Origin: Gigantopelta aegis
Taxonomy: Eukaryota > Mollusca > Gastropoda > Neomphalida > Peltospiridae
Direction of reading: 5' to 3'
DNA: 64,000 nt
Assembly: GCF_016097555.1 (NCBI RefSeq)
Contig: NC_054699.1
Location: 5,723,197-5,787,196 of the forward strand
Under the pieces are notes generated by a model. It had not been told where the DNA came from. It did no database searches and saw only the letters and a list, made by a program, of their open reading frames with translations. Below are positions 8,390 through 46,045 of this stretch, one piece after another (position 1 is the stretch's first letter; each line of letters begins with the position of its first letter). Made by a program: the position numbers and the translations under genes.

Positions 8390-8682
8390 GTTAATCATTG
8401 GCTAAAATCAATGATATACCATGGCTTACCATTGGTTATCTCGTTTATCACCCGAACATTCATAATCAATAATACGAGTGGACACATCTATGTTAGAAAT
8501 TTTATTTTGCTTTGCAGTGGGAGCATTTGGTTTTTGGGTTATCGTTGTTAGGTATTTTATTTGATCTTTGGTCTGTTTTTCTGTGTACACAATTATACAA
8601 AGAATAATTTTAAAACTTGCTCTCATCGTTTTGGTTTTGTTCGGATGGTAACGTAGGAATTCGATTTTAAACTCTGTAAACT
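8390..8682 (+). promoter_or_regulatory. Upstream region and noncoding exon of MGC gene copy 1
   Basis: The block 'acattcataatcaataatac' followed by 'gagtggacac' matches the regions upstream of the other family copies (36.2, 39.4 and 39.9 kb). The last part, 'ttttaaactctgtaaact', is followed by a donor-like GTGAGT at 8683, where the other copies have GTAAGTACATCA. I infer a 5' noncoding exon ending at 8682, spliced to the coding exon at 10075. Confidence 0.5.
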
Positions 8683-8699
8683 GTGAGTAAATCAATGTG

Positions 8700-9330
8700 T
8701 TGTGTGTCTTTAAATGTGCGAGTGTTGCAAGGGACTGAGTGAGTGTTACTCACTGGCGTAACCAGGGACAGTGAACATGGGGACATACGAGGGTACAGTC
8801 AGTCAGAATACTCGGGCTACGGGGCCAACACCCACCACTCCCCATGCCCTGATCTAGAAAATTAGGGGTTTTATAAAATATATTTTCTGGTGGAGCATAA
8901 CTTGTTGTTTCCGGGTTGGGGTTGGATGTTGTTATTGTCTGCAAGGGAGCACCAGCAGTCTGACCGGGGCCGGTAACAGGCGGAGGGTGATATGGTGCTA
9001 TGGAATTTGGAATGTTTCGTCAGATGAAGCCAACGAGAAAGGGTGCGCAGTGTTTGTGAAGGATATTAGGCGCAATTTTGAATGGTCCGCCAAAAAGGAA
9101 AATAGGGAGCTACGTATAGGTTTTGAAGATTAGTATGCCGAGAGTAATTCATTAAGTGCACCCAGCTAACGCAGCCCAAACGCTGTCCGGAGTTGAAATT
9201 GGTTTTAACTTTTAGAGTTATCGCTTCGGATTCAAATAATGACCTACTAGTGTTACCAGCCAATCAAATTTCATAACGTCTGGTAGTGAGTATGTTGCAT
9301 ACGGTAAAAGGAGCAACTCTGTAGGAAGGA
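8700..9330. other. Likely intron of MGC copy 1; no gene seen
   Basis: No coding frame or recognised repeat. The sequence is of ordinary composition. Confidence 0.4.
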
Positions 9331-9332
9331 AG

Positions 9333-9533
9333 GAAATGGTGTATTTAACGACGCACTCAACACATTTTATTTACGGTTACCGGTATATGGTTAAGGACCA
9401 CACAGATATTGAGAGAGAAAACCCACTCTTTTCGATTAGCAGCAAGGGATCTTTTATATGCACCATCCCATAGACAGGATAGCACATACCACGGTATTTG
9501 ATGTACCAGTCTTGGTGCACTGGCTGGAGCGAC
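9333..9533 (-). mobile_element. SINE, type A
   Basis: Tail 'gtatttaacgacgcactcaa', then body with 'gcaccatcccatagacagg' and 'gtgcactggctggagcgac'. The head is missing, and the element lies in the presumed intron of MGC copy 1. Confidence 0.85.
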
Positions 9534-9875
9534 TACTTTGTAAGAAAACCCAGCTGACATGTCATCTGCGAGTCCCCCGAAGCAAGATATCTAAAAACAA
9601 ATACTGTTTATATAGCCTTGATGTTAGCTATAGTATTCATAAACTGGTGTTTTTTTGTTGTTGTTTTGAGGGGTTTTTTTATGTGTGTGTGGTTGTTTTG
9701 TTGTTTTTTGGGGTTGTTTTTTTGTTGTTGGTTGGGGGTTGTAGGTTTTTTTTGGGAAGTGTATGTGTGTATAATACAAGTAATCGATTTCGATCGTGCT
9801 GCTTTTTCGTTGGATGTATCACATTGGCGACCTGGTCATCACCTAGGAGCAGCCAGTCGTATGTCTTGAAATTGT

Positions 9876-9970
9876 TAGAATGACCATATGTTTGACGACC
9901 AATAGCCGATGATAAGATAAAAAAAAAATCAATGTGCTCTAGTGACGTAATTAAATAAAACAAACTTTAC
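9876..9970 (+). mobile_element. SINE, type-B tail fragment
   Basis: 'gtttgacgaccaatagccga' and 'gtgctctagtgacgtaatta' match the type-B tail, with a short A insertion. Confidence 0.75.
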
Positions 9971-10074
9971 TTTGAAATTGTTAACACATATACATGTATG
10001 TCTAAACAAGTACGTGTTATAAAAAAAAACATAACCACAGGGTATGTAAGAAACCTGTTTTCTTTTCTCAACAG

Positions 10075-10272
10075 GAGCACCTGACGATGGGATGTAACAC
10101 CTCAGCGCCAGAAATGCTCGATCGCATCCGGCGGTTTGACAGCAGCAGCGGCGGTGACGAGCGGCAGTCGGCGCATGAAGACGCTGATGTCAATCACGTC
10201 GGCGACACCGCACATCACGACAGCACGGACGGGAAAACCCGCCAAACATCTGATAAGAAACAAGATTCATAA
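10075..10272 (+). CDS. MGC family copy 1: small acylation-motif protein
   Basis: A coding exon with ATG at 10087 and stop TAA at 10270-10272, giving 61 residues. The acceptor 'ttttcttttctcaacag' ends at 10074, exactly 12 nt before the ATG as in copy 4. The protein starts MGCNTSAPE: Gly2 with Ser at position 6 suits N-myristoylation, and Cys3 suits palmitoylation. After a variable part with Ser/Gly runs come 'SAHEDADVNHVGDT' and a tail 'TRQTSDKKQDS'. It has no membrane segment or signal peptide and is strongly hydrophilic. I do not recognise the family. Four homologous copies in one orientation within 36 kb, keeping the same frame and splice position, argue for a real gene family. The upstream exon is probably at about 8640-8682. 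It could also be one exon of a longer host protein, but the stop position is conserved. Confidence 0.62.
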   Translation, partial: EHLTMGCNTSAPEMLDRIRRFDSSSGGDERQSAHEDADVNHVGDTAHHDSTDGKTRQTSDKKQDS

Positions 10273-10296
10273 GCACACTGGTGGCGGCGGATTCAG

Positions 10297-10425
10297 GTGT
10301 ATGGTGGGTTAGGGGGAGGTCTATGATGGGGTTAGGGGGAGGTCTATGATGGGGTTAGGGGGAGGTGTATGATTAGGTAGGGGGAGGTGTATGATGGGGT
10401 AAGGGGAGATGTATGATGGGGGTTG
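10297..10425 (+). repeat. Tandem repeat of about 22-24 bp
   Basis: Five to six units of 'gtctatgatggggttagggg' with small length changes, just after the stop codon of MGC copy 1. In the transcript it would be 3' UTR. Confidence 0.8.
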
Positions 10426-44244: not shown

Positions 44245-44535
44245 GAATTACAGGGAAATGCCAATAACAAAACGTTTATTCATATTTGCATTATTACCAA
44301 CAGCTATGTAGGGTTCTGTAAGCATTTTTGCATTATTACCAACAGCTATGTAGGGTTCTGTAAGCATTTTTGCATTATTACCAACAGCTATGTAGGGTTC
44401 TGTAAGCATTTGACCTGGATTATAACTAATATTTTGAGTAAAATGATGGAAATACATGGTGAAACGTTTTCAGGCCAGCTCATTTTCCCAAATTTGTCCA
44501 TCATTTTTGACAGAATGTGAAGGTTTGCTCCACAT
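44245..44535 (-). repeat. Dispersed repeat R5, inverted copy, with 42-bp triplication
   Basis: 'cagctatgtagggttctgta' is the reverse complement of the 'accctatatagctgtt' block of the other copies. This segment is repeated three times with a 42-bp period (44286-44411), giving a repeated 14-codon frame by chance. Confidence 0.7.
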
Positions 44536-44538
44536 TTG

Positions 44539-44584
44539 GGTGTGTGTGTGTGTGTGTGTGTGTGTGTGTGTGTGTGTGTGTGTG
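44539..44584. repeat. (GT)n microsatellite
   Basis: About 22 GT units. Confidence 0.95.
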
Positions 44585-44888
44585 TTAGCTAATCCTCCAT
44601 CTCGAACGCGAATGCTAATAATATATCGGTAACGAGTTTCAACTACAAAGTGATGAAGTGTAAGCTATTCCTCGCTTATGTCCCTTTCCAAATTTACGGG
44701 TAACCCATGTAAAAAGCGTGGTTTTGTAAACACGGGTAAAACACACACATGTGAAATACACCACGGGTGTGTCTTGGTCAGGTTTTTCATTGTTTTACGT
44801 AAACCAGTGTTAAACCTAGGTTTTGATATAACCCGGTGTTTCGAAACCCAGACATATGAAATCGACCTTAAAAGTTTTATAAGAACCA

Positions 44889-45107
44889 GACCAGATCTCG
44901 ACTACATAACCGTTAGTTCCCAGACGCACGTGCGTTTTTAAAAATATGAAAATGTATTTTGTGATATTAAAAACACCAGGATGACCAGAAACACTTCGGA
45001 TATACGGAAATGGATAATCTAACCAACACAATATAAGTAATGTATGGTTTCAGTTATCAAAAACGGCTCTAATAGTGAAAAGTATGCCTTAGTGTTTAAA
45101 AACTAAA
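44889..45107 (+). mobile_element. piggyBac-like MITE (TTAA family 1), partial
   Basis: 'cagacgcacgtgcgttttta' through 'gtttaaaaacta'. The terminus is replaced by a SINE tail at 45108. Confidence 0.82.
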
Positions 45108-45188
45108 AAAATTACCAAATGTTTGACACCCAATAGCGGATGATTAATAAATCAATGTGCTCTAGTGATATCGTTAAACAAAACAAAG
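45108..45188 (+). mobile_element. SINE, type-B tail fragment
   Basis: 'gtttgacacccaatagcgga' and 'gtgctctagtgatatcgtta'. Confidence 0.82.
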
Positions 45189-45317
45189 TTTAACTTTGAA
45201 AACTAATCGGTCACTGTAACGTTCAATTTCAGATACGTTTCATAGATTTTCTTTTATTAGTGTTAGTTTTTTTGTGTGTGCGTTTTTTCTTTTTCTTATC
45301 CATTCCGAGCCGATTTG

Positions 45318-45540
45318 TTTTTCTTGTTCCAACCAGTGCACCACAACTGGGCAAAAACCGTAGTATGTGCTTTCTTGTCTGTGGGAAAGTGAATATAAAA
45401 GATCCCTTGCTGCATTAGGAAAAATGTAGCGGGTTTCTTCTGATGACTACGAGTCAGAATGACAAAATGTTTGACATACAATAGCCGATGATTAATTAAC
45501 CAATGTGCTCTAGTGGTGTCGTTAAATAACACAAACTTTA
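45318..45540 (+). mobile_element. SINE, type B, head missing
   Basis: 'ttgttccaaccagtgcacca' through 'gtgctctagtggtgtcgtta'. It ends about 30 bp before the coding exon of MGC copy 4, so the acceptor's pyrimidine tract lies right beside it. Confidence 0.85.
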
Positions 45541-45559
45541 TAACTTTCTTTTTCTGTAG

Positions 45560-45754
45560 AACTACCTGACAATGGGGTGTGGTTCTTCGGTGCCGGAAGA
45601 GCACTTTCGCCTACAAGCTTTTGACTATAGTGAATTTGACAAACAGCAGGAATCGGCGCATGAAGACGTCGACGTCAATCGCGTCGGCGACACCGTCGAC
45701 AACGTCAGCACGAACGGAGAAGATCGTCAGACATCGGATCAGAAACAAGATTGA
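45560..45754 (+). CDS. MGC family copy 4: small acylation-motif protein
   Basis: ATG at 45572 and TGA at 45752-45754, 60 residues. The acceptor 'actttctttttctgtag' ends at 45559, exactly 12 nt before the ATG as in copy 1, and the leader 'actacctgaca' resembles copy 1's 'gcacctgacg'. The protein starts MGCGSSVPEEHF (Gly2, Cys3, Ser6), then has an acidic and aromatic stretch, 'SAHEDVDVNRVGDTVDNVS' and the end 'TSDQKQD'. It has no signal peptide or membrane segment. The likely upstream exons are at 39596-39654 and/or 40075-40133, giving an intron of about 5.4 kb filled with repeats. AATAAA sites at 46015 and 46040 could end the transcript. The function is unknown; a lipid-anchored peripheral membrane protein is inferred. 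Confidence 0.66.
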   Translation, partial: NYLTMGCGSSVPEEHFRLQAFDYSEFDKQQESAHEDVDVNRVGDTVDNVSTNGEDRQTSDQKQD

Positions 45755-46045
45755 TGACCACGTCAGTCAGTGGCGGATCACGGGGTGTGTGGAGAAGTGA
45801 GGGGTGGGGATGAAAGGTACAGTCGCCGACTGCTAAAACGAAAGATCATATTCTGAAGGAAACAACGCGCGAGACTTGTCGTATCTCACGTATAGGAGAT
45901 TGATCTAAACACACAGATCCTGTTGGCTACTCCACGGCGATAACCTAAAGGTGAAAGCCACAGCATCCAATGAAATTTACACTACGGCAACTGATTTTTC
46001 TCTAACGTATAACTGAATAAACGCACGAATGCTCTGAAAATAAAT
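45755..46045 (+). other. Probable 3' UTR of MGC copy 4
   Basis: Homologous in patches to the region after copy 3's stop codon, and ends in two AATAAA signals (about 46015 and 46040). Confidence 0.5.

Follow-up and report, generated by a model that had tools for sequence, protein, structure and literature searches.

Proteins that start with MGxxxS are N-myristoylated, and a cysteine at position 3 is often palmitoylated as well. Among animal proteins, G-alpha-i/o and the Yes kinase are dual-acylated proteins with the start MGCxxS, and short proteins with an MGC start are represented by the smAKAP, OCC1, BAALC and LAMTOR1 type. Molluscs possess lineage-restricted tandem gene families that belong to no detectable family, arise by local duplication and undergo birth and death of copies. 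Here, a family of small Met-Gly-Cys proteins (the MGC family) is described from a 64,000-nt stretch of the gastropod Gigantopelta aegis (NC_054699.1: 5,723,197-5,787,196, forward strand), termed the window, in whose positions all coordinates are given. It consists of four copies in one plus-strand array of about 37 kb, three of them intact and one broken (Table 1). The open reading frames (ORFs), their homology, the frame constraint between copy 1 and copies 3 and 4 and the occurrence at a single locus are established directly. We consider it reasonably probable that the array is, taken as a whole, a tandem family restricted to one lineage and encoding small, disordered host proteins that would be N-myristoylated and probably S-acylated.

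The window proteins resemble the smAKAP, OCC1, BAALC and LAMTOR1 type in being short and starting with MGC, and are set apart from it by the missing Pfam match, Pfam being the only basis of this distinction. G-alpha-i/o and Yes contain a GTPase and a kinase domain, respectively, unlike the window proteins of 60-70 residues. Compared with what is generally known of mollusc lineage-restricted tandem families, the MGC family adds a predicted lipidation signal and a duplicated promoter or first-exon block. The likeness to plant CBL1, CBL4 and CBL9 lies in the N-terminal MGCxxS signal, which excerpts of two articles describe as a dual-acylation motif (myristoylation plus S-acylation) of plant CBL proteins (PMC8494787, PMC4030171). 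According to an excerpt of the latter, plant CBLs carry EF hands (PMC4030171), whereas no domain was detected in the 60-70 residues of the window proteins and no confident fold was obtained. By its sequence, the family would be of a known kind, an MGCxxS-anchored small protein, while the family itself is without known relatives.

Coding copies, single locus and reading-frame constraint

Residues M1, G2, C3, S6 and P8 are invariant in copies 1, 3 and 4 (start MGCxxSxP), which also have in common the block SAHEDxxVNxVGDT and a related Ser/Thr/Gln/Asp tail; 25 of the 70 columns of their alignment are invariant. Among the 172 ATG-started ORFs of 50-100 amino acids (aa) in the window, a count that includes nested ORFs, the pattern MGCxx[ST] matches three, which are copies 1, 3 and 4. 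A tail DNA profile built from copies 2, 3 and 4 recovers copy 1 with an E-value of 1.9e-16 in the window, as compared to 2.3 for the best non-member, indicating that the family likeness is more than chance. A preliminary description of the stretch had reported a four-copy family with a shared SAHED block and MGC starts with Ser at position 6, the fourth member reading IGC. Translations and alignment agree with it on the peptides, the motifs and the copy positions, and copy 2 indeed starts with IGCISSAP (codons ATA GGG TGT). However, copy 2 is no fourth working copy, as its ATG is replaced by ATA and its frame is shifted. Its SAHED block reads VSDT where the intact copies have VGDT, and a 24-bp minisatellite of 12.9 units occupies 16068-16383. 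Judged from these features (ATG replaced, frameshift, swelling by the minisatellite), copy 2 is a pseudogene. Copy 3 aligns with several of the 24-bp units across the stretch that holds its extra ~9 aa, and this insertion is therefore read as repeat-derived.

Genome searches covered the source assembly (1.149 Gb, 5216 contigs), their counts being lower bounds and very common words being skipped. With this limit, copy-1 DNA and three member proteins (copies 4, 1 and 3) match the four window copies only; the copy-3 protein gives five matches, two of which are pieces of copy 2. Besides itself, DNA of upstream block a of copy 4 detects block b and the block of copy 3, and the copy-1 upstream block matches only itself. 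The possibility that the shared block is part of a high-copy transposon, also raised in the preliminary description, was examined in this way, and a dispersed transposon is ruled out since the coding DNA, the upstream DNA and three proteins match this locus alone. The sequence 20-30 kb upstream of the window contains an ABC-transporter exon (Pfam ABC_membrane, E 7.6e-9), which is consistent with an ordinary host chromosome. Haemocyanin exons (Pfam beta-sandwich family) occur on two unplaced contigs of the assembly, and one of these regions matches 14 haemocyanin entries of the PDB, KLH1 included, with E-values below 1e-50, in good agreement with a mollusc source.

Between copies 1 and 3, the synonymous divergence (dS) in frame 0 is 1.46 and the nonsynonymous divergence (dN) 0.36, corresponding to a dN/dS ratio (w) of 0.25 (Fisher p 6.5e-5). 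For copies 1 and 4, dS is 1.20, dN 0.32 and w 0.26 (Fisher p 2.9e-4), all Fisher tests having been run on rounded substitution counts. In the other two frames, the same comparisons yield w values of 0.94-1.18. Frame-specific purifying selection, as a constraint on a host protein-coding sequence, holds for copy 1 versus copies 3 and 4. The dN/dS comparison among copies 1, 3 and 4 that had been suggested earlier thus gave about 0.25 for the pairs with copy 1, but no significant result for copies 3 and 4. The observed aa identity was reached in 0, 2 and 0 of 3001 cases of a first shuffle null (pairs 1-3, 1-4 and 3-4) and in 0-49 of 4000 cases across 12 tests of a stricter local-substitution shuffle null. 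Copies 1, 3 and 4 share BLASTN similarity only over the last ~110 nt of the coding sequence (CDS), and it stops no more than 7 nt past the stop codon, which favours frame 0. An 83-aa out-of-frame ORF at 36838-37089 (+) overlaps copy 3. An overlapping +1-frame protein, starting at 36838 in this ORF, was considered as the principal product and rejected, because there is little constraint on copy 1 in this frame (w 0.77-1.14 for tail and whole CDS), the +1 frame offers no ATG close to the start of copies 1 and 4 and the similarity stops at the frame-0 stop codon.

Upstream blocks and splice signals

Copies 1, 3 and 4 are each preceded by a 5' block that is homologous among them and carries a GTRAGT donor. 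This block is doubled before copy 4, where a 97% tandem duplication at 39347-40192 provides two possible alternative first exons. The conserved splice structure claimed in the preliminary description stands in part: its donors were located at 8682/8683, 36471/36472, 39654/39655 and 40133/40134, and the AG acceptors exactly 12 nt before the ATG of copies 1 and 4 were confirmed at 10074 and 45559, but no upstream block was found for copy 2 and the acceptor of copy 3 is poor. Splice sites were scored with a simple position weight matrix. On this scale, the copy 1 acceptor ranks first of 95 AGs in 8390-10086 (score 11.2) and the copy 4 acceptor fifth of 297 AGs in 39370-45571. Donor ranks are 4 of 140 for copy 1, 2 of 41 for copy 3 and, for copy 4, 1 of 411 (block b) and 2 of 411 (block a). 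The two best of the 297 acceptors are found inside the copy 4 blocks, at 39595 (a) and 40074 (b), each 59 nt before the donor. There may consequently be an additional first exon still further upstream, and the stretch that follows the acceptor at 39595 and runs to 39654 would then be a 59-nt internal noncoding exon. Taken together, the signals and their conservation among paralogues suggest that the copies are spliced.

An upstream-block profile without the copy-1 row recovers the block of copy 1 at 8418-8623 (E 3.8e-7; best non-member 0.97), although copy 1 had been part of the alignment that supplied the profile rows. The match ends short of the donor, which was lined up in the block alignment. 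In addition, the 20-base element AATCAATANNACGAGTGGAC has three mismatch-free sites in the genome, which lie upstream of copy 1 and in copy 4 blocks a and b. When up to two mismatches are allowed, 34 matches are obtained genome-wide versus 41 for a backward control, and the 31 imperfect ones look like chance. The exact sharing of the element provides independent support for homology of the copy-1 upstream block. The analysis thus supports the earlier proposal that a coding sequence of host type was duplicated in tandem, with a constrained frame, homologous 5' blocks before copies 1, 3 and 4 and occurrence at a single locus.

Table 1. Features of the MGC array (positions in the window).
Feature	Position	Strand	Remarks
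Copy 1 upstream block, proposed noncoding exon	8390..8682	+	donor after 8682, GTGAGTAAATCA
Copy 1 5' untranslated region (5'UTR) part of coding exon, 12 nt	10075..10086	+	after acceptor ...CTCAACAG (intron end 10074)
Copy 1 CDS	10087..10272	+	61 aa, MGCNTSAPEM...SAHEDADVNHVGDT...KKQDS, stop; translation, genome protein searches, dN/dS
Copy 2 pseudogene	16040..16530	+	ATA for ATG; SAHED block at 16419 in other frame; minisatellite
Copy 3 upstream block	36200..36471	+	donor after 36471, GTAAGTACATCA; 68% identity to 39471-39680
Copy 3 CDS	36846..37058	+	70 aa, MGCSSSSPRN...SAHEDANVNRVGDT...QQQDS, stop
Copy 4 upstream block a	39370..39654	+	donor after 39654, GTAAGTACATCA
Copy 4 upstream block b	39850..40133	+	donor after 40133, GTAAGTACATCA, acceptor 40074; part of a 97% duplicate of block a
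Copy 4 5'UTR part, 12 nt	45560..45571	+	after acceptor ...TTCTGTAG (intron end 45559)
Copy 4 CDS	45572..45754	+	60 aa, MGCGSSVPEEH...SAHEDVDVNRVGDT...QKQD, stop
Two AATAAA signals	46016..46044	+	262 and 285 nt past copy 4 stop

Proposed membrane anchor and competing explanations

An initiator Met-Gly-Cys with Ser/Thr at position 6 is present in all three intact copies, whereas copy 2 is without Met. A PROSITE-type myristoylation pattern fits the same three, and exons of NMT are present in the source genome. SAHE in the conserved block is the sole CK2-type site common to the three intact copies. The AlphaFold model has a mean pLDDT of 54.7 with no residue above 70 and is uninformative, its input having been three sequences only; DSSP on the predicted structure gave nothing. 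From the MGCxxS motif, we infer that the proteins are lipidated; they are probably disordered, as suggested by the low-confidence model, and a role as membrane adaptors would follow by analogy with their class. Given the absence of credible relatives and of a confident structure, the MGCxxS motif, the NMT exons and the SAHE site, the proteins are taken as candidate membrane-anchored disordered adaptors.

In the mechanism proposed here, the family would have arisen by local duplication of a small host gene. Each gene would have its 60-70 codons in one exon, preceded by a single intron and, before that, by a promoter or noncoding first exon, which copy 4 has twice. The MGCxxS N-terminus would lose its Met, whereupon Gly2 would be N-myristoylated and Cys3 probably S-acylated, and the lipid anchor would hold the protein on the inner face of a membrane. 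There, the SAHEDxxVNxVGDT block and the Ser/Thr/Gln/Asp tail could form a short segment for docking and phosphorylation, SAHE fitting the CK2 pattern. A more detailed version, which we put forward tentatively and hold to be somewhat doubtful in its entirety, views the array as a family of undescribed, taxon-restricted, dual-lipidated membrane microproteins that originated at this one locus and whose turnover continues there. The three genes would all be active and have separate promoters, one of them with tandem alternative first exons, and the N-terminal halves would diverge (that of copy 3 through growth of its coding minisatellite) while the SAHED-GDT docking block would be retained. The family resolves no long-standing question. 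If expressed, it would be a compact lineage-specific family with a readable membrane signal, so that location and partners are testable despite the lack of known homologues, and a single 37-kb array would display gene birth, promoter duplication, expansion of a coding minisatellite and gene death.

Several searches for relatives were carried out. Pfam-A returned no families for copies 1, 3 and 4 at E-values up to 10, a search of low power for such short proteins, in which few matches above about 0.1 survive the HMMER filters despite the setting. In a sequence search of the PDB, neither copy 4 nor the three-sequence profile had a match. Two copy-1 matches to the UPF0135 protein SA1388 (PDB; E 0.17) were read as chance, and the MGC part lies outside the match. 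Of 48 pattern matches in the viral_contigs scan and 59 in the prokaryote collection, none was confirmed as a relative. No Rfam match was found in the window at gathering scores, and a limited literature search turned up no mention of the SAHED peptide or the family. The family is apparently lineage-restricted, as far as can be judged from collections that contain no other mollusc.

Several observations weigh against the favoured reading of a working, lipid-anchored family. Copies 3 and 4 show no significant constraint relative to each other (whole-CDS w 0.65, Fisher p 0.18), and their tails differ by 2 synonymous and 9 nonsynonymous substitutions, with w of 1.26 in frame 0 and 0.26 in the +1 frame. 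The +1 frame is, moreover, open through the CDSs of copies 1, 3 and 4. In the comparisons with copy 1, dS exceeds 1, which is near saturation, and numbers are small. The acceptor of copy 3 (36835, TTGAG) ranks first among 14 AGs with a score of only 2.2, and splicing there would put the out-of-frame ATG at 36838 first; an AG at 36844 avoids this ATG and scores poorly. No AATAAA or ATTAAA is found within 1.5 kb past copy 1. BLASTN from the other upstream blocks misses the copy-1 block, and the profile match to that block scores 24.1 bits with a correction of 23.3 for composition bias.

Some of these points would be expected of a decaying tandem array, in which an ancestral small gene was duplicated and only copy 1 and/or copy 4 works, while copies 2 and 3 have lost their function or are losing it. 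Copy 2 is broken; in copy 3, the N-terminal part contains repeat-derived sequence, the acceptor is weak, an out-of-frame ATG precedes the start and constraint against copy 4 is not significant. Yet copy 3 retains start, stop and frame across 70 codons, and the first 78 nt of its tail differ from copy 2 by 5 synonymous and 2 nonsynonymous changes (w 0.09), so that we judge such a decay unlikely, though it deserves serious attention. A noncoding locus, e.g., a duplicated long noncoding RNA or enhancer with chance-open frames and a conserved stretch of regulatory nature, appears improbable. It would account for the shortness of the conserved stretch, the conservation of the upstream noncoding blocks and the open second frame, but not for the frame-specific constraint of copy 1 versus copies 3 and 4, the ATG at an identical place 12 nt past an AG in copies 1 and 4 or the end of similarity at the stop codon. 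Finally, the family could have been an accessory gene left by a Polinton/adintovirus-like element and duplicated later, since a remnant at 3.2-6.1 kb, with a BIR ORF and a zinc-finger/ATPase ORF of weak packaging-ATPase resemblance, ends on the strand of copy 1, ~4 kb short of it. This origin is very hard to credit, as the viral_contigs scan confirmed no relative, the MGC copies have host-type splice signals and the genome searches find no further copies.

Neighbouring elements

At 3208-6149 (+), a BIR-domain ORF (Pfam E 5e-22) is followed by a zinc-finger/ATPase ORF with matches to Adeno_IVa2 and Pox_A32 below the cut-off. This pair resembles a Polinton/adintovirus-like remnant. Directly downstream of copy 2, an ORF at 16653-17075 (+) encodes the last part of an RNase H domain (Pfam E 1.4e-6) and is probably a retroelement fragment. 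Gypsy-type pol/integrase ORFs and two Tc1/mariner-like transposase stretches, recognized in translations by eye, are located at 19461-23832 (-), 13646-14563 (-) and 24349-25408 (+). Further minisatellites consist of 31 units of 46 bp at 30483-31879 and 22 units of 40 bp at 41186-42073, and recent local duplications at 57306-60616 are 97.7-99.2% identical.

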